Assembly: GCA_014730275.1 (NCBI GenBank)
Contig: WJIL01000016.1
Coordinates: 124,001-188,000, forward strand
Length of the DNA: 64,000 nucleotides
From: Candidatus Lokiarchaeota archaeon
Lineage (GTDB): Archaea > Asgardarchaeota > Thorarchaeia > Thorarchaeales > Thorarchaeaceae
Direction: 5' to 3'
In this document: in pieces, positions 25,632-49,341 of the stretch
Numbering within the stretch: the stretch's first letter is position 1
Layout: the number at the start of each line of letters is the position of its first letter
Made by a program: the position numbers and the translations under genes
The notes under the pieces: model-generated
What the model saw: the letters and a program-made list of their open reading frames with translations, nothing else
Databases searched by the model: none
What the model was told of the DNA's origin: nothing

Positions 25632-26630
25632 TTGTCCCGTCTTGATGATATCGTGGACATGTTGCTTTCATTCAATGGAATCTCTCGGAAATTCGTGCTT
25701 CCCAGCATAATAAGTCGTCTTCGAAAGTCTTCTTACAATGGTGATTTTCCGCATACATTGGGCGAGGATTCAGCTGCAATAGAGACTAGCTGTGATGAAT
25801 ACGTTCTCTTGACTACTGATTCTATCGTCGAAGAGTTGTGCCTTTACCACCCTCGAGCAGCTGGCTTCAATGCCATTTTGGCTAATGTGATGGACATTTA
25901 TGCCGCAGGAGGTAGACCCACATCACTGGCTGTTGCGTTATCCTATTCTGACGAAGATGTGGGCGAGCAATTACTTGAAGGGCTTATTGATGGCTCACAC
26001 AAGTTTAGAATCCCCTTGGTTCGTGGGCATACAAATTCGCAATCTCAATCAACTTATGTTGTTGGATCTGCTACTGGAACTGTAGAGAAATCGAACCTGT
26101 TGACCGCGGGAGGTGCACATTCTGGCGATCATCTGGTTTTGCTTTTCGATAAGAATGGTAAGGTTGGTGCGCATTATAAGCTGGGCTGGGATTCAGTAAC
26201 TGAACAAGACTCGGATGCAGTTATTCAACGTTTATCTACAATGAATGAACTTGCAGAGCTTCACTTGGTACATGCATCCAAAGATGTTTCAACAGCTGGA
26301 ATGGTTGGAACAGCAGGGATGCTCCTCGAATATTCTGGCAGAGGAGGACACCTAGATCTGAATGCAGTAAAATCGGAGATTCCTAGTACGGTTTCTCTCG
26401 AAGATTGGCTGAGAATGTATATCTCACTTGGCTTTCTGGTTGCAGTTAGCCCCGAGAATCATTCCAGAGTGTCGGAAATATGTACGAAACATGGTATGGA
26501 ACATGTAGTTGTGGGCGAAGTGGATGATAGTGAAGAACTTAGACTTCGCTTGGCCAATCGCGAGAAAGTGATTTTTGACTTCTCTCACGGCCCAGTTCTT
26601 ACTCCAGAAAATAGACTTCAGAATGACTGA
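25632..26630 (+). CDS. AIR synthase-related protein (methanogenesis marker 2-like)
   Basis: 332 residues with the PurM/ThiL/SelD/HypE fold. ATP/Mg-binding Asp-rich motifs are present: GEDSAAIE, LLTTDSIVEEL, FNAILANVMDIYAAGGRPTSLAVAL. The later domain has GDHLVLLFDKNGKVG and KDVSTAGMVGTAGMLLE. The overall order resembles the archaeal family called methanogenesis marker protein 2, which also occurs outside methanogens. It is not SelD: the N-terminal Sec/Cys-Lys loop is missing. It is not HypE: it lacks the C-terminal PRxC. The start is TTG 25632 behind GAGAGGA. Confidence 0.8.
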   Translation: MSRLDDIVDMLLSFNGISRKFVLPSIISRLRKSSYNGDFPHTLGEDSAAIETSCDEYVLLTTDSIVEELCLYHPRAAGFNAILANVMDIYAAGGRPTSLAVALSYSDEDVGEQLLEGLIDGSHKFRIPLVRGHTNSQSQSTYVVGSATGTVEKSNLLTAGGAHSGDHLVLLFDKNGKVGAHYKLGWDSVTEQDSDAVIQRLSTMNELAELHLVHASKDVSTAGMVGTAGMLLEYSGRGGHLDLNAVKSEIPSTVSLEDWLRMYISLGFLVAVSPENHSRVSEICTKHGMEHVVVGEVDDSEELRLRLANREKVIFDFSHGPVLTPENRLQND

Positions 26631-29098: not shown

Positions 29099-30499
29099 GT
29101 GACCTTGCAAAACCTGATTCCCGTACATGTGGGACTTGTAGGCCACATAGACCATGGCAAAACAGAATTGGCGAAATGTCTTAGTGAAAAAGTATTCACA
29201 GCTGGCCTTGATAAGCATCCCCAGTCAAGAAAGCGCGGAATCACAATCGATTTGGGCTTCAGCATGTTTTCTTCCGACAAATACCTTGTGACCCTTGTTG
29301 ATGCTCCGGGTCATGCTGATTTGATTCGAAGCGTTGTAGCTGGTGCCAGTATCATTGATGCCGCTATTCTGACAGTTGCAGCTGATGAAGGCGTGCAGAT
29401 ACAGACCATCGAACATGCCACTGTTCTCAAGGCGATGGCTATAGACAAATTGCTTGTTGCCATTACGAAAACCGACCTTGTTGAGAACAATCAAGTGAAG
29501 CAGGTTTCAAGAGAAGTTGAAGGAATCGCAAAGCGATTGAAACTGGAGCCAGTTGATTATATCCCTGTCTCTGCGGAAACAGGTACTGGCATCCAGAAGC
29601 TGCGTGAGATACTGGTAGATTCACTTACTTCCCCCAACCGAGAGGATGAAGGCCCCCTTCGCATACCTATAGATCACGCATTTCCCGTTACTGGTCATGG
29701 AACTGTATTGACTGGCACTATTCTTAGGGGGTCTCTATCTACTGGTGATGCGGTACAATTGGTGCCAGGAGGAAGTCGAGCAACAGTACGTACGATTCAG
29801 ACCTTCGGACAGGAACGAGAGTCAGCAACCGCAGGTGATCGCGTGGGTGTGAATGCTCCAGCATTTGATCATAAACGCATTGAGCGTGGAAACTATCTCT
29901 GCACTCCTGATAGCATGAAGACTGCAGAATCCCTTCTAATAGGAGTCGAACTCAATCCGGGGTATGAGGGCCGTATTACTGCACGGATGGTTGTGAATGC
30001 AACGATTGGAATGTCGAGCGTTACTGCAGAAATCGTACCTTTCAGAGAGATGGATGGACGACGAATTACCGTCGAAGAACCTCAGGAGCGAGTATTCGAA
30101 GCTGCGCTGTTGCTGAAGGAGAAAGTACCTGCAGAAATAGGAAATCGTGTCCTACTCATGCGAACCGATATGCCTGTAACAAGTATGCGCATCGTTGGTT
30201 GTGGAATCATTGGTGACCTCATGAATGTAGTAACACTACACCACGTGCGGACGAGAAATGGAGAAATCAGTAGAATTCGAGATGAGGATGTACTGATAGA
30301 GGGCCTTGCCCGAAGCAAGCAAAAAGCACAATCACTGAAGGGACAAACCGTCCGTAGTGAAAATGGAGCTAAAGGAAGAATCTTGGATGCGTTTGGAACC
30401 CGTGGTGTCGTAATAGTGACATTTGAAGATGAAGTGGAACTCAAAGAGGAAGTCGTATTGGAGGACTACATAGAGGAGGAATACCGTTTTGGCAGATGA
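29099..30499 (+). CDS. selB: Selenocysteine-specific elongation factor SelB (archaeal/EFSec type)
   Basis: 466 residues. The GTPase domain has GHIDHGKTELAK, the effector/switch region KRGITIDLGFSMF, DAPGHADLIRSV and TKTDLV. Domains II and III follow, then a fourth domain with VRSENGAKGRILDAFGTRGVVIVTFEDEVELKEEVVLEDYI. The SelB-type insertion and lack of the bacterial C-terminal winged helices match archaeal SelB and eukaryotic EFSec. It carries Sec-tRNA to the ribosome. It overlaps the SepSecS start by 11 nt and is followed by tRNA-Sec. The start is GTG 29099 or TTG 29105; the latter has better spacing from GGGAG. Confidence 0.95.
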   Translation: MTLQNLIPVHVGLVGHIDHGKTELAKCLSEKVFTAGLDKHPQSRKRGITIDLGFSMFSSDKYLVTLVDAPGHADLIRSVVAGASIIDAAILTVAADEGVQIQTIEHATVLKAMAIDKLLVAITKTDLVENNQVKQVSREVEGIAKRLKLEPVDYIPVSAETGTGIQKLREILVDSLTSPNREDEGPLRIPIDHAFPVTGHGTVLTGTILRGSLSTGDAVQLVPGGSRATVRTIQTFGQERESATAGDRVGVNAPAFDHKRIERGNYLCTPDSMKTAESLLIGVELNPGYEGRITARMVVNATIGMSSVTAEIVPFREMDGRRITVEEPQERVFEAALLLKEKVPAEIGNRVLLMRTDMPVTSMRIVGCGIIGDLMNVVTLHHVRTRNGEISRIRDEDVLIEGLARSKQKAQSLKGQTVRSENGAKGRILDAFGTRGVVIVTFEDEVELKEEVVLEDYIEEEYRFGR

Positions 30500-31820
30500 G
30501 CCTATTGACCGATTTGAAGCACTTGTACCTCATAACATGAAAGAACGGGGGCGAATTACGCTTGAGGCATTGCTTTCACCAGTTCGTGATGTGATAAATC
30601 GAAGACAATTCCCGAAAGAACCGCTCTCAGAAGAACAGGTCGATTTACTGCTACGACTACTTTCATCAATGGATACAGACAAAGATCCAGATGCAGCAAG
30701 AGTGGGTGAACGAGAAGGAAGGACCGCTAGTCCAATGATACAGAAGCTGGCGGCAGGATTTAATCATGGCATTGGGCGCAGTGGCCATGTGACAGCTCCT
30801 CAGCCAAAGGCTCCGGGAGCATCTATAATGCAGAGAATAGCCAATTCTGTTGCCCTTGACGCCATTCGTGAGTTAGGCTTGCCCAATGTCCGAGCTGGTT
30901 TGGTTACTCCCCTTTCTACCGGCATGACACTAGCACTGGTATTCGGGGCATTTCGGAGGGAAATTGGCACACGAAACGTCATTTATCCACGTATTGATCA
31001 TACCTCACCTAAGCGGGCAATTCAACTTGCCGGACTAAACGAGAAGACTATACCCACTGTTCTGGATGGAGATGCAGTTGTCCCCGATATGAACGAATTT
31101 GAGAAGTGTTTGCAGGATGCAAAAAACGCAGCCGTTTTAGCAACAACCACCTTCTTCCCCCCACGTGAATCTGATCCTGTCAAAGCAATCGCCAAGCTAT
31201 GTGAAGAAAAACAGATACCTCTGGTGATCAACAACGCCTATGGTGTTCAATCGAAGCGTGTTATGAGCGAGATTCGTTCTGCAATTGATGCTGGCCGAGT
31301 TGATGCAGTTGTGCAGAGTAGTGACAAGAACTTCTTGGTGCCTGTTGGTGGTTCAATCCTAGTATCTCCTCGTGATGACATCATTGAACAGGCTGCTGAA
31401 ACGTATGCTGGGAGAGCAACGGCAGCACCAGTCGTTCAAACATTAGCCGCTTTGCTAGTTCTCGGACTGGAGGAATACAGCAAGTTACAGGAGGCACAGG
31501 TAAATAACCTCAATTTTCTGGAGGATGAGATGGCATCTATTGCCGATTCTGTTGATGAGCGCTTATTGTCGATTTGGAACCCAGTGGCATGTGCGATGAC
31601 TATTGACGGATTTGACGCAAAAAAGATTGGAGGGCGGCTCTATAACAGAAGAGTTACCGGTCCCCGAGCTGTACCTAAGAACGGGAAGGGAGCTTCAATC
31701 GATGGTTACCCACACAGCTACTTGGTGATGAATGCCGCCATCGGAGCAAGTCGTACAGACGTTAAACAAGCTACTACTAGACTATATAAGGAATTAACCG
31801 AATGGTTAAAGAAGGGTTGA
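30489..31820 (+). CDS. spcS: O-phosphoseryl-tRNA(Sec):selenocysteinyl-tRNA synthase (SepSecS)
   Basis: 443 residues, full length. This PLP enzyme converts Sep-tRNA(Sec) to Sec-tRNA(Sec) with selenophosphate. Visible family features are GFNHGIGRSGHVTAPQPKAPGAS, NVRAGLVTPLSTGMTLALVF, VLATTTFFPPRESDP, VINNAYGVQS and the PLP-lysine region VQSSDKNFLVPVGGSIL. The start is TTG 30489 behind GAGGAGG, inside the end of selB, so the two are translationally coupled. Confidence 0.96.
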   Translation: MADEPIDRFEALVPHNMKERGRITLEALLSPVRDVINRRQFPKEPLSEEQVDLLLRLLSSMDTDKDPDAARVGEREGRTASPMIQKLAAGFNHGIGRSGHVTAPQPKAPGASIMQRIANSVALDAIRELGLPNVRAGLVTPLSTGMTLALVFGAFRREIGTRNVIYPRIDHTSPKRAIQLAGLNEKTIPTVLDGDAVVPDMNEFEKCLQDAKNAAVLATTTFFPPRESDPVKAIAKLCEEKQIPLVINNAYGVQSKRVMSEIRSAIDAGRVDAVVQSSDKNFLVPVGGSILVSPRDDIIEQAAETYAGRATAAPVVQTLAALLVLGLEEYSKLQEAQVNNLNFLEDEMASIADSVDERLLSIWNPVACAMTIDGFDAKKIGGRLYNRRVTGPRAVPKNGKGASIDGYPHSYLVMNAAIGASRTDVKQATTRLYKELTEWLKKG

Positions 31821-31836
31821 AGGAGGCTTCTCCTGT

Positions 31837-32487
31837 ATGGAAGACTTGGAAAATCAGCCTAAGGTCAAGCGCACCATAACCTATGATCGTCCACAATCCT
31901 CAACCATATTCAGAATTTCTTGGTTCGCAATTGGATTGAAACCCGGGGCGATGCTCAACGAGTATAGTGAAGGGGAGGGCAAGCTGTTCAAGGGTAAGGC
32001 TATGTTTACAGTCCCTCTAGATGATACTAAGACGCAGGTCCGCTTGTGGGTGGAAGAAGCTCAGCGCTCTATCGAATTGACAGCTTGGGGTCCCGATAAG
32101 GAGATGCTGAATGACTACCTAGATGAAGTTGTTTCACGTTTGGAGACCTACATCGGCAAGTACTTGGAGCTATCTGATGAAGATAGACAGAAAGTCCGCC
32201 GGGCATTAGTTGCAAAAACATGTTGGGATCGCGTAGTCTATGAAATCCTGAACAAGGCGCCACTTAGTTCCATCTATGTTCAAGTTGCTCATGGCAGAGA
32301 AATGATGATCAAAGCAACCGAGGGCGAGGATATTCATCCACTAGCTTTGACGACGAGCGGATGGTTGACGAAAATCGAAGAACTCCCTCAAGATGAACCT
32401 CCACCATCTGATGTTGCGGAGAACCTTGCCAAGAAAACAGTAGAATGGAAGAAAGAAACACACGGCGTCATAGGAAACTATCTCTAG
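31837..32487 (+). CDS. Unknown protein in the selenocysteine operon
   Basis: 216 residues, 16 nt after sepSecS with a perfect SD (AAGGAGG), and 95 nt before tRNA-Sec on the same strand. The N-terminal half is a beta-rich region (TITYDRPQSSTIFRISWFAIGLKPGA, KGKAMFTVPLDDTKTQVRLWVEEAQRSIELTAWG). The rest is helical (LNDYLDEVVSRLETYIGKYLEL), then a short beta part with SSIYVQVAHGREMMIKATEGEDIHPLALTTSGW and a charged tail. It is not L7Ae, SBP2, SelD or SerRS. Position suggests a Sec-related role, such as SECIS binding or SelB assistance, but this is inference. Confidence 0.75.
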   Translation: MEDLENQPKVKRTITYDRPQSSTIFRISWFAIGLKPGAMLNEYSEGEGKLFKGKAMFTVPLDDTKTQVRLWVEEAQRSIELTAWGPDKEMLNDYLDEVVSRLETYIGKYLELSDEDRQKVRRALVAKTCWDRVVYEILNKAPLSSIYVQVAHGREMMIKATEGEDIHPLALTTSGWLTKIEELPQDEPPPSDVAENLAKKTVEWKKETHGVIGNYL

Positions 32488-32582: not shown

Positions 32583-32674
32583 GGCCCCCTCTAGGGACGG
32601 TGGACTGTCCCCGTGGGCTTCAAACCCATGAGTTCGCTAAGAACTAAGAGTTCGATTCTCTGGGGGGGCCGCCA
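32583..32674 (+). tRNA. tRNA-Sec (anticodon UCA)
   Basis: The cloverleaf can be drawn by hand. A 9-bp acceptor stem pairs GGCCCCCTC (32583-32591) with GGGGGGGCC (32662-32670). The D arm is GGGAC/GTCCC. A 6-bp anticodon stem CGTGGG/CCCATG encloses loop CTTCAAA, giving anticodon TCA at 32620-32622. The long variable arm is AGTTC-gctaa-GAACT. The T arm has only 4 bp, AGAG-TTCGATT-CTCT. Discriminator G at 32671 is followed by an encoded CCA (32672-32674). The 9+4 architecture, long variable arm and UCA anticodon are diagnostic of archaeal/eukaryotic tRNA-Sec. Confidence 0.96.
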
Positions 32675-34319: not shown

Positions 34320-35099
34320 TCAGCGTTCTTTGGTCCCTACTCCTCTTTCTCTCGAGCTAAGCTTCTCCAACTCCGTTCTTAGTCGTGCCTTGGTAGCTCC
34401 AACGGTCCATTCATCGAGCAAGGCCTGCTGCAGTATTTCTCTCCTAGTCAAATGAACACGTTCATCCGGCCCAAGGTCTGGATTGTCTTCCAGAAAATCT
34501 GATACTACCCCCCTGGTTGCCACATCTAGTTGGTTGTTCTCCGTCTTCGCAACATCCTGTGGTTGTTCCTCAGCTTCTGCCTTTCGGAGGGCTTCAAGAA
34601 TTTCAATAGCCTCCTGAGTAGCGCTTTTCCTACTCAAATCAACTGTTGCCAGTGGCTCATCCCAAGCATATTTCTTTCCAGGAATGTCTAATCGATCATC
34701 GATTCTGTGAATGACGTGCTCTGGGACAATCATTCGGCGTTTTTTGTTCCATTTGAGAGCTACTTCAAGGGGTGTAGTAACGAACACGGTTCCATATACA
34801 CAGGTGTGGTTCAGCGCAATTTCGCGGATTTCGTGTCTCATACTTGCATAGTAGTTCGTATCGTCATGGACCACCGATAATCCGCTATCAGCTAAATCCC
34901 TTGTTCTCTCAAGCGCTTTTCTTCGTACTTCGTTCTCTTTCTTCGGCGAAAAATCTGCGTAGAATGCTTCGTCTCGCCAGTGATCTGTACTGACAAGTTC
35001 TACCTTTGATGGGTACAAATGATGGTGAATGATTTGCCGAGCTAAGGTTGTTTTTCCTGAGGCGGGTATACCGCAAAGAGCGACAACGAATTGTTTCAT
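34320..35099 (-). CDS. pstK: L-seryl-tRNA(Sec) kinase (PSTK)
   Basis: 259 residues. The kinase domain has P-loop CGIPASGKTTLA, LVSTDHWRDEAF, and the PSTK signature VHDDTNYYASMRHEIREIA. Then come RRMIVPEHVIHRIDDRLDIPGKKYAWDEPLATVDL and a helical C-terminal domain beginning ATRGVVSDFLEDNPDL that contacts the tRNA-Sec D arm. It phosphorylates Ser-tRNA(Sec) for SepSecS. The match to the Methanocaldococcus enzyme runs through the C-terminal domain, which separates it from Kti12-like relatives. It is encoded opposite to selB-sepSecS-tRNA-Sec, 1.6 kb from the tRNA. Confidence 0.92.
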   Translation of the reverse strand: MKQFVVALCGIPASGKTTLARQIIHHHLYPSKVELVSTDHWRDEAFYADFSPKKENEVRRKALERTRDLADSGLSVVHDDTNYYASMRHEIREIALNHTCVYGTVFVTTPLEVALKWNKKRRMIVPEHVIHRIDDRLDIPGKKYAWDEPLATVDLSRKSATQEAIEILEALRKAEAEEQPQDVAKTENNQLDVATRGVVSDFLEDNPDLGPDERVHLTRREILQQALLDEWTVGATKARLRTELEKLSSRERGVGTKER

Positions 35100-47569: not shown

Positions 47570-47792
47570 TCTACTTGTTTCACAAAACCCTCACTATATG
47601 AAGATTAGCTCAGTTCACGGCCCAGATCAGGAATCAAGCTTGTACTGTTAGCGATATATCATTGGAGAATGAAACATTACGAAAATGTAGTAAATTCATT
47701 TCCATCGAAGAAAAACTAACCTCATGATGACTTACGCTAATCACACTCCGTATTCGGGTTGCTAGGAATGCTCAGAGGTGTGGTATTCTAAG

Positions 47793-47880
47793 GAACTTGA
47801 CCAGCGAGCCCTTGCGGGGCTCGTCAGGTTGGGCCCACAGGTTTACGGCCCGACCGTCATCCGCCGCTGGTCTGCAGTTC
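47793..47880 (-). promoter_or_regulatory. Eukaryote-like SECIS element over the vhuU stop codon
   Basis: On the minus strand the RNA forms a long hairpin. The outer stems are GAACT/AGTTC and GACCAGCG/CGCTGGTC. The core has AUGA (47857-47860, overlapping the vhuU stop) opposite UGA (47824-47826). Between them a helix GGTCGGGCC / GGCCCAACC (one mismatch) closes an apical loop GTAAACCTGTG with AAA at 47842-47844. AUGA, 12 nt, AA in the loop, and UGA on the 3' side is the eukaryotic SECIS layout (tandem G.A quartet), not the compact archaeal GAA-A form known from methanogens. A smaller hairpin (CGAGCCC/GGGCTCG) could compete with the outer stem. Confidence 0.78.
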
Positions 47881-48015
47881 CTTTCTTGCTATCTCGCGAC
47901 CCTCATCGTCGACAACGACTAAATGAGCGCCGCATGATAGTCAGCAGTCATAGCACCGCACAACCATCTCAAGGAGGTTGAGCAGGCCTTCATCGATTTG
48001 TTCTGTTTGTGTCAT
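47857..48015 (-). CDS. vhuU: Selenoprotein VhuU: Sec-containing C-terminal piece of the [NiFe] hydrogenase large subunit
   Basis: A 52-codon gene read on the minus strand from ATG 48015 to TGA 47857-47859, with one in-frame UGA at 47941-47943 (codon 25). With UGA read as Sec (U) the core is LLNLLEMVVRCYDCULSCGAH, and U-x-x-C-x-x-H matches the C-terminal Ni ligand motif of hydrogenase large subunits, Sec taking the first Cys position. The preceding gene (mvhA) ends 12 nt upstream without this motif. GGTGAT is 3 nt before the ATG. About 20 residues (LVVVDDEGREIARKELQTSGG) follow the His and may be removed by the maturation protease. An adjacent SECIS-like hairpin and the Sec machinery at 29-35 kb support UGA recoding. 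Confidence 0.9.
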
Positions 48016-48027
48016 TGTATCACCGTT

Positions 48028-49341
48028 TTACTTGATCATAGGATCAGGTAGGTTCAAGTTTTCGTGCTCTTTGTTCTCGAACACTTGTTTGGCTGCTTTC
48101 ATCAGGCTTTTCTCAATGCCGCCTATATTGTTATTGGTCGCGACCACGAGGTTTGTTTTCGTTACTATCCCTTTTTCGTCTGTCCAGTAATGATGAAGCA
48201 GCGTTCCTCGTGGGGCTTCCACAACACCCACGCCATTGCCTTTCTTGGGTTCAACATCACTGAGTTTCACATCTGTGCTGACAATCTCGGGATCTGTAAG
48301 CAGTTTCTCCATTTCTTCAACTGCTTGTATCATCTCAATGACCCTTGCCCAATGATAAGCGAATGTAGCATGGGTAGGTCTTCCGAGTTTCTCCCTAAGC
48401 TCCTCAAGCGCTTCTTGCGCCAGCGGAGTAGGCATCTTATCAGCTACATTGATTCTAGCGAGGCTGTTTGCCCGCCAGACCCCCTCTGGATACCCAGCTG
48501 GTTTGTAGTAGATATGAGTGGCATAGGAGTGATCAGGGACGTGCTCGCCATAGTACTTTCTGTATCTCTTAGCAGGAAAGTTTTCAACGATTTCTCCTTC
48601 AGGATTCATAACACGCAGGCGACCATCATAGATTTCATAGTTTCCGCGGTAATGCATACCAAGATAGTATGTTGGCACAACCGCAAAATTCTCGATAACG
48701 TCCCAGTAATCATCAACAACCTTCTTTGCGAGCTCCACAGTATCAGTTGTCCATTCCTTCAAGTCTTCCATTCTTTCGAGGAAGTTGTCTCTGTGTTCCT
48801 CCGAAAACGGGTTCAGCATACCGCCTGGAGTTGCGGTAACAGGATGGATTGATTTTCCACCTATTGCGGAGACTAAATCCTGGCCGTATTCCATGACTTG
48901 GAGAGCAAGCTTGCCTACATCTGGGAGCGACTTGATTATGTTGACAACATTCCGTTGTGACGGGTCCGCAAATGGCCCTGCGAGAAAATCAGGGGCAGCT
49001 AGCGCGAAGAAATGAAGTCCATGAGAGGATAGTTGTTTGGCGTTCAAGAACAGCCTGCGAACTTTCTCTGCTGCGGATGGCGGATTCACGTCCCATGCGG
49101 CTTCCACCGCTTTCACTGATGCGAGAAGGTGTGGGACCGGGCAGATACCACAAATTCGCTCTGCTATTCTTGGTACCTCTTCAGCCAAACGCCCTTCCAG
49201 GAACTTCTCGAAGAAACGGGTGCTGGAAATGTTGAACTGAACGTCCTTTACCTTTCCGCCTTTGCCCAGCTTGATTGTGAGTTCTCCATGTCCCTCAAGC
49301 CGGGTAACAGGTTCAATCCGAATTGTCCTCTCGTCTGTCAT
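48028..49341 (-). CDS. mvhA: [NiFe] hydrogenase large subunit MvhA/VhuA, lacking the C-terminal Ni motif
   Basis: 437 residues. The N-terminal nickel motif is RICGICPVPHLLASVKAVE (about 62-80; R-x-C-G-x-C-x-x-x-H), followed by the usual helical core. The protein ends LNLPDPMIK and a TAA stop, without the D-P-C-x-x-C-x-x-H motif that normally closes the subunit. The missing motif is supplied by vhuU 12 nt downstream, as in the split VhuA/VhuU of some methanococci. Start ATG overlaps the mvhG stop (TAATG). It is the catalytic subunit of the H2-oxidising Mvh (group 3c) complex that feeds HdrA. Confidence 0.93.
   Translation of the reverse strand: MTDERTIRIEPVTRLEGHGELTIKLGKGGKVKDVQFNISSTRFFEKFLEGRLAEEVPRIAERICGICPVPHLLASVKAVEAAWDVNPPSAAEKVRRLFLNAKQLSSHGLHFFALAAPDFLAGPFADPSQRNVVNIIKSLPDVGKLALQVMEYGQDLVSAIGGKSIHPVTATPGGMLNPFSEEHRDNFLERMEDLKEWTTDTVELAKKVVDDYWDVIENFAVVPTYYLGMHYRGNYEIYDGRLRVMNPEGEIVENFPAKRYRKYYGEHVPDHSYATHIYYKPAGYPEGVWRANSLARINVADKMPTPLAQEALEELREKLGRPTHATFAYHWARVIEMIQAVEEMEKLLTDPEIVSTDVKLSDVEPKKGNGVGVVEAPRGTLLHHYWTDEKGIVTKTNLVVATNNNIGGIEKSLMKAAKQVFENKEHENLNLPDPMIK

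Follow-up and report, generated by a model that had tools for sequence, protein, structure and literature searches.

In the Asgard archaea, which are the closest relatives of eukaryotes, selenocysteine (Sec) is decoded with eukaryote-like SECIS elements but no SBP2. According to the available text of Huang et al. 2024 (PMC11227280), Asgard genomes gave no homologue of SBP2. That text also mentions an Asgard-only hypothetical protein, exemplified by MBD3157761.1, which often lies near secS, efSec and pstk and to which that text assigns neither fold nor function. NCBIfam lists a family NF045535, Sel_Asgard ("putative selenocysteine system protein"), with no fold, mechanism or partner. Separately, the accessible text of Makarova et al. 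2024 (PMC10936438) describes Asgard multidomain proteins in which adaptin appendage regions are combined with the C-terminal domain of VPS28 (VPS28-C); its main text does not contain the string "seleno". The text available to us of a 2026 review (PMC13188914) makes no mention of the Sel_Asgard protein. Among the titles and abstract beginnings listed for selenocysteine with adaptin, none appeared relevant, and literature searches for NF045535, for selenocysteine with ESCRT/VPS28 in Asgard archaea, or for Asgard VPS28 with UFL1, found nothing.

The stretch of DNA analyzed here (the window, 64,000 nucleotides) carries a 216-codon gene on the + strand, starting with ATG at 31837 and ending at 32487. 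Its 216-aa product is a full-length member of NF045535, matched over residues 18-212 with 229.1 bits against a cut-off of 132. The first-pass annotation had described an unknown gene 16 nt after sepSecS, with a perfect Shine-Dalgarno sequence and 95 nt before tRNA-Sec. All of these distances are right, with the sepSecS stop at 31820 and the tRNA-Sec start at 32583, and GGAGG is present at 31822-31826. The gene indeed had no assigned function, but a family name already existed for it. The hypothetical protein of Huang et al. 2024 very probably belongs to the same family, as it shares the Asgard-only range and the vicinity of Sec genes. While family membership was already known, what is new here is how the Sec-locus protein is predicted to fold, its kinship with appendages and VPS28-C, its signature and its independence from Sec, none of which was found in the titles, abstracts and passages covered by our literature search. 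Figure 6B of Makarova et al. 2024 (PMC10936438) may show an architecture of the Sel_Asgard type. The features of the locus are as follows.

29099..30499, + strand: archaeal-type selB (EFSec), including domain III (TIGR00475, 266 bits, cut-off 242)
30489..31820, + strand: sepSecS, the conserved upstream partner (TIGR03531, 448 bits, cut-off 225)
31822..31826, + strand: Shine-Dalgarno sequence GGAGG, 10 nt upstream of the ATG (read from the sequence)
31837..32487, + strand: Sel_Asgard gene, 216 aa, predicted platform domain plus VPS28-C-like bundle (ORF, profile match, model)
31837..32166, + strand: residues 1-110, predicted N-terminal domain with the fold of an adaptin-appendage platform (TBP-like / helix-grip), order b-a-b4-a (model, structure and profile comparison)
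32167..32484, + strand: residues 111-216, predicted C-terminal domain, a four-helix bundle resembling VPS28-C (model, structure and profile comparison)
32227..32229, + strand: codon D131, with which the D-Y-R-E signature begins (alignment, pattern scan)
32275..32277, + strand: codon Y147 of the D-Y-R-E signature (alignment, pattern scan)
32296..32301, + strand: codons R154-E155 of the D-Y-R-E signature (alignment, pattern scan)
32583..32674, + strand: tRNA-Sec (UCA) (ARAGORN 32583-32674; RF01852 32583-32670, 55.9 bits, gathering 47)
34320..35099, - strand: PSTK-like kinase (TIGR03574, E 4e-35, 121 bits, below the curated cut-off of 290)

Elsewhere in the window, a selD-like AIR synthase (25632-26630) reached 53 bits against a SelD cut-off of 125, and its best matches were methanogenesis marker 2 and sll0787-type proteins. 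The stretch proposed to hold a SECIS (47780-47900) folds better on the + strand, the only strand folded, than 200 of 200 shuffles (z -3.9). The ORF near it (48028-49341), presumably hydrogenase-like by its sequence type, lies on the - strand, i.e., opposite to the strand that was folded.

Structure prediction, which had been suggested as a check, was productive: an AlphaFold2 model built from an alignment of 54 sequences reached a pLDDT of 94.2 and a pTM of 0.90. In this model, residues 1-110 are arranged as b-a-b4-a and residues 111-216 as a four-helix bundle. Among the VIA-align matches listed, the best was the VPS28 C-terminal domain (2j9w, an entry whose identity was looked up; Z 12.7, 2.6 A, 100 of 101 residues aligned), followed by the AP2 beta2-appendage platform (Z 10.9, 2.5 A, 95 aligned). 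A designed four-helix bundle scored Z 10.5 in the same list, and the METTL16 VCR and a small chain of a tRNA-bound KEOPS complex scored Z 8.5-8.7. Since bundles and TBP-like folds are common, the fold alone is not decisive, and since platform/TBP-like folds are generic enough to match the METTL16 and KEOPS chains as well, RNA binding is possible. Foldseek searches with the window-protein model gave nothing at E<=0.001 among the matches listed, so the homology to appendages and VPS28 rests on intermediate proteins (see below). A search of the viral structure library gave no match at E 0.001 or better, and a PDB sequence search with the family profile returned nothing convincing (best E 0.017).

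On the basis of the model, the window gene encodes a standalone two-domain protein consisting of an appendage platform (TBP-like) and a four-helix bundle related to VPS28-C. The bundle is what it has in common with the C-terminal domain of the ESCRT-I subunit VPS28 (PDB 2j9w, 2j9v, 2g3k), whereas the N-terminal steadiness-box core through which VPS28 takes part in ESCRT-I assembly is absent and a b-a-b4-a platform stands in its place; the window protein itself has no sequence match to VPS28 PF03997 (E<=1). With the AP2/COPI appendages it shares the platform lobe, a generic fold, but not the IG-like lobe that precedes the platform. As for SBP2 and other L7Ae-type kink-turn proteins, only a hypothetical role is in common: the window protein matched neither L7Ae nor any other RNA-binding family in Pfam and NCBIfam scans (E<=1), and among other Pfam families at that threshold there were two matches, both far under their cut-offs. 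Its predicted order of secondary-structure elements also differs from that of L7Ae. All 23 rows of Thorarchaeal type (f1, one of the families in our own grouping) are net negative and some other rows are basic; because several f2 rows reach pI 9, charge is a weak argument against RNA binding.

The residues F25, D131, Y147, R154, and E155 are invariant in an alignment of 32 rows. Of the rows taken from the fetched loci, all 99 standalone ones (E<1e-20) and none of the 13 multidomain ones contain the pattern D-(13-18)-Y-(6)-RE, counts that include duplicates. The pattern was also present in homologues from genomes without Sec genes, those of f9, f3, and f12 among them: of the 15 genomes that have the protein without a working sepSecS or selB, the 14 that were read (all but G121) had it. 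Conservation is higher in the bundle than in the platform (mean frequency of the top residue 0.49 versus 0.40). Moreover, proteins of 121-144 aa that consist of the bundle only and carry the signature were identified away from sepSecS in G129, G130, and G131 (f24 and f25, which have Sec genes), and G128 encodes a bundle-only protein besides a full copy. The bundle-only signature proteins are located as follows.

Locus L083, 9779-10141: bundle-only signature protein
Locus L084, 8490-8885: bundle-only signature protein
Locus L093, 9320-9718: bundle-only signature protein
Locus L148, 7254-7685: bundle-only signature protein

Those of L083 (G129) and L084 (G130) adjoin a ribosomal L16/L10e gene, the former also PPDK, and that of L093 adjoins a nucleoside hydrolase. 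A profile search with the bundle retrieved the standalone family at E<1e-10 in 135 genomes and multidomain relatives at about 1e-5 only. As to a split in the tree between Sec-linked and non-Sec homologues, the AU test did not reject a single clade of all Sec-linked proteins (p 0.138).

The intermediates that connect the Sec-locus protein to appendages and VPS28 are longer proteins, mostly of about 790 aa, which carry the same module C-terminally in some f2, f27, and f28 genomes. Four of them are encoded at these positions.

Locus L085, 7180-9558: multidomain protein of about 790 aa
Locus L086, 9500-11863: multidomain protein of about 790 aa
Locus L087, 7198-9549: multidomain protein of about 790 aa
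Locus L088, 9905-12268: multidomain protein of about 790 aa

Pfam identified PCI, DDRGK, and UFL1-like (PF09743) domains in these four, and in all of them (four of the four full ones scanned) VPS28 PF03997 matched above gathering over the second half of the module, with E-values of 2e-5 to 5e-9. The protein of L086 matches NF045535 itself (E 4e-12). The shorter relative L090 had neither a VPS28 nor a UFL1/DDRGK match in Pfam. Profile comparison by hhalign aligned the Sec-locus proteins (32 rows, among them L018 from G025) with the multidomain modules at a probability of 98.6 over 188 columns, and the modules with 13 Asgard VPS28 proteins at a probability of 93.7 (E 1.8e-7). As controls, three pairings were reversed and two pairings had their columns shuffled eight times each; none of these alignments exceeded a probability of 1.5. 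Compared directly, the Sec-locus proteins and Asgard VPS28 gave a weak match (probability 15, E 0.0017); direct profile homology was not adopted, and the kinship was accepted only by way of the multidomain relatives. A model of the module plus the region preceding it (pLDDT 79.5) matched whole two-lobed appendages in Foldseek at E 2e-11 to 1e-9 (COPI 1.6e-11, AP2 beta2 8e-10), and with VIA at Z 11-14 and an rmsd of 4-10 A over both lobes. Three VPS28 C-domain entries scored Z 14.7, 12.3, and 12.3. Because these relatives match both full appendages and VPS28-C, the Sec-locus protein can be read as lacking the IG lobe and consisting of the platform lobe and VPS28-C.

These results place Sel_Asgard as a compact and distinct branch of a larger Asgard pool of appendage plus VPS28-C proteins. 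The building blocks, a TBP-like appendage domain and VPS28-C, are those of the proteins described in the accessible text of Makarova et al. 2024 (PMC10936438). Unlike those, the window protein is standalone, lacks the IG lobe as well as wH/PCI or longin parts, carries the D-Y-R-E signature and lies in a Sec operon. The proteins of L085-L088 combine in a single chain Cys-rich and winged-helix regions (DDRGK, UFL1-like, PCI), an adaptin-type appendage and a VPS28-C bundle. Their profile matches the solved DDRGK1-UFL1 chain 8b9x (E 2e-11), and they are possibly single-chain relatives of the UFM1 ligase. G130 alone has 16 appendage/VPS28-C-like matches (E<=10) in frames of up to 2608 aa, a large repertoire of adaptors.

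The distribution of the family was analyzed in 227 genomes of the phylum, where NF045535 was found above cut-off in 126, SepSecS in 130, and SelB domain III in 118. Genomes were counted as Sec-positive (n=137) if they had SepSecS, over cut-off or as one of four fragments (G032, G036, G193, G203), or SelB. Both the protein and Sec were present in 115 genomes, the protein only in 11, Sec only in 22 and neither in 79 (Fisher p 2e-28, with genomes that are not independent of each other); as the sepSecS of G032 is a remnant, moving this genome to the Sec-negative side gives 114, 12, 22, and 79. By family, the corresponding counts were nine with both, four with Sec only, three with the protein only and 13 with neither (p 0.0095), the Sec-only families being f13, f24, f25, and f26, the last with SelB only. 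Ten of the 22 Sec-only genomes (G010, G020, G036, G055, G140, G143, G174, G180, G186, G191) break at a contig edge, which explains these absences because the contig ends where the gene should be; for G055 this was deduced from its relative G039. Five others have matches below the cut-off (G021, G039, G040, G129, G130), G131 has the bundle-only protein, and a standalone copy was absent in the remaining six (G050, G057, G215, G216, G205, G132). When the bundle search is combined with the Sec table, G032 moved, a standalone homologue is present in 120 of the 136 genomes counted as Sec-positive and in 15 of the 91 others. Within f1, 42 of 46 other genomes had an NF045535 match at E<=0.001; the term Thorarchaeal-type for f1 derives from the fact that named Thorarchaeota loci fall in one clade with it. 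The control Methanocaldococcus jannaschii has SepSecS and SelB and no Sel_Asgard. Sub-cut-off matches to tRNA-Sec RF01852 were discarded as a genome-wide marker of Sec, as they occurred at E<=0.001 in 14 of 14 control genomes.

The first-pass annotation had asked whether the presence of the protein follows selB and sepSecS, and had held that homologues common in genomes without selB would speak against a Sec factor. That objection applies in part: co-occurrence stands, but 15 of 91 genomes without a working sepSecS or selB have the protein, and a lineage with Sec genes lacks it. The standalone protein was found without over-cut-off SepSecS or SelB in eight f9 genomes, in the single-contig genome G038 (f3) and in two f12 genomes. 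Another of the 15, G123 (f4, 73% complete), probably belongs to a Sec user whose genome is incomplete. Proteins of f9 and G038 exceed the cut-off of NF045535, and the "equivalog" name carried by this family is a risk of misleading annotation in such genomes without Sec genes. The neighbours read around the non-Sec homologues are unrelated genes, among them HerA-like ATPase, chloride channel and DUF354/GT4 genes. The f12 homologues are at the following positions.

Locus L079, 8741-9421: f12 homologue
Locus L080, 2190-2867: f12 homologue

In L079, from a genome without SepSecS or SelB matches, the gene stands in a row with DUF354 and glycosyltransferase-4 genes.

Three Thorarchaeal-type genomes appear to have kept the protein after losing Sec. 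In G025 (f1), selB is gone and the sepSecS remnant covers residues 384-435. CSMAG_1051 (L021) encodes the same Sel_Asgard protein as G032; its selB is reduced to residues 3-103, its sepSecS to residues 317-435, and a PSTK fragment is left. G220 yielded no trace of selB or sepSecS. Each of the three has an intact Sel_Asgard gene with the signature. Whether these losses are artefacts was checked by searches for sepSecS/selB remnants, PSTK and tRNA: ARAGORN found no tRNA-Sec in the loci of the three genomes (L012 and L116 are short), and the PSTK search is imperfect, as it returned nothing for the Sec-positive control G029 either. Codon changes on the G025 branch (5 N : 24 S) resemble those of its Sec-positive sister (6 : 17), and so do those on the L021 branch with one outgroup (9 : 11 versus 7 : 9 in the sister); with another outgroup, L021 shows more amino-acid changes than its Sec-positive sister (8 N : 11 S versus 3 : 10). 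Retention after loss of Sec is suggestive of another role, although the losses may be recent and the deletions around an intact gene in these MAGs may be assembly effects. G222 has neither Sel_Asgard nor Sec genes. Conversely, the f13 genomes (G050, G057, G215, G216) have SepSecS (4/4), SelB (3/4) and a PSTK-like protein (2/2 tested), and no Sel_Asgard homologue better than E 0.2 was found in them; this lineage is a natural contrast for comparing types of SECIS. Sel_Asgard is not dedicated to Sec: it also occurs in genomes that do not use Sec, and some Sec users do without it.

Gene order was examined in the 135 genomes with standalone NF045535 matches (long multidomain frames, weaker matches and the second small fragments of G015 and G128 were set aside), 120 of which also have SepSecS. 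In 113 of these 120, Sel_Asgard lies directly downstream of sepSecS, on the same strand and within 1 kb (40 in f1, 58 in f2, and 15 elsewhere). The seven exceptions are genes on separate contigs (four), farther downstream (two) or on the opposite strand near selB-sepSecS (one, G039). By comparison, selB is close and codirectional in 36 of 43 f1 genomes and in none of 60 f2 genomes with a Sel_Asgard match; in the latter it is elsewhere on the contig in 34 and not found or on another contig in 26. Counting above-cut-off matches, tRNA-Sec adjoins Sel_Asgard in 34 of 71 genomes, SepSecS in 20, and lies elsewhere in 17. As the linkage to sepSecS is fixed while the positions of selB and tRNA-Sec vary, the stable unit is sepSecS plus Sel_Asgard, often with tRNA-Sec. 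In five of seven f2 genomes searched (G144, G167, G152, G037, G185), a vps28 gene lies 6.6-10.5 kb downstream of sepSecS and Sel_Asgard on the same strand. This vicinity was not taken as a functional link, since the intervening genes are unrelated in the one locus examined (G185).

We consider the best reading, to which we give a probability of roughly 45%, to be that Sel_Asgard is a SepSecS-associated protein-protein adaptor with a second, Sec-independent partner, and that it is an accessory, non-obligatory Sec factor. An adaptor is suggested because both structural models are themselves protein-protein adaptors, and by analogy with them the protein would have no enzymatic role. Sel_Asgard would be made together with SepSecS and most likely dock, via one of its domains, on SepSecS or on its complex with tRNA-Sec. 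The strongly conserved bundle may bind a partner that is not Sec-specific, and the adaptor could thereby tether or organise the synthesis of Sec-tRNA or its hand-over. The second role would persist once Sec is lost. The earlier suggestion of a candidate new Sec factor holds insofar as gene position and co-occurrence tie the family to the Sec operon, but not as regards a factor dedicated to Sec.

The strongest competitor, which we rate as clearly less probable, is that Sel_Asgard has no role in Sec and is a small trafficking or ESCRT-side adaptor that merely shares the sepSecS transcript. The fold and the relatives are of the trafficking type, bundle-only relatives stand beside unrelated genes, f9, f3, f12, and three genomes of Thorarchaeal type have the protein but not the Sec genes, and the distance to vps28 in f2 would fit as well. 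A mere passenger is at odds with a linkage to sepSecS that persists in 113 of 120 genomes even though selB is displaced and tRNA-Sec switches sides, and with the correlation of presence and absence with Sec genes. In the opposite direction, a more ambitious version would have a coat/ESCRT-type adaptor recruited into the Asgard Sec machinery, where it binds to SepSecS and passes Sec-tRNA on to SelB, the ribosome or the SECIS, takes the place that SBP2 or other factors have in eukaryotes and links Sec to trafficking or to the UFL1/DDRGK-like toolkit; this scenario we regard as unlikely.

Readings that involve direct contact with RNA appear more doubtful still. The binder or adaptor of a eukaryote-like SECIS envisaged by the first-pass annotation, which would bind SECIS RNA or bridge SECIS and SelB and so do the work of SBP2 in Asgard archaea, has improbable standing despite the operon position, the co-occurrence, the absence of an SBP2 homologue reported in the accessible text of Huang et al. 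2024 (PMC11227280) and the platform-fold chains of RNA-bound complexes among the structural matches. Against it stand the lack of an RNA-binding family match, a predicted fold of platform plus VPS28-C type and a fixed neighbour that is sepSecS and not selB. The net negative charge of 23 of 23 Thorarchaeal-type rows, the distance of selB in f2, the retention of the protein in selB-less lineages and its absence from f13, despite SepSecS, SelB (3/4) and PSTK-like protein (2/2 tested), point the same way. The same objections bear on a chaperone of tRNA-Sec or a subunit of SepSecS that would touch the RNA directly and hold tRNA-Sec in the SepSecS/PSTK complex. Although tRNA-Sec adjoins Sel_Asgard or sepSecS in 54 of 71 genomes, the protein is also present where a working SepSecS, SelB and above-cut-off tRNA-Sec were all not found, and we hold this role to be a similarly long shot.

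For the gene that most constantly follows sepSecS, a predicted fold, a kinship, a signature and a likely partner are now at hand, and the SepSecS-associated adaptor reading is therefore directly testable. If Sel_Asgard serves Sec, a trafficking-type adaptor module would have been drawn into the recoding of the genetic code.
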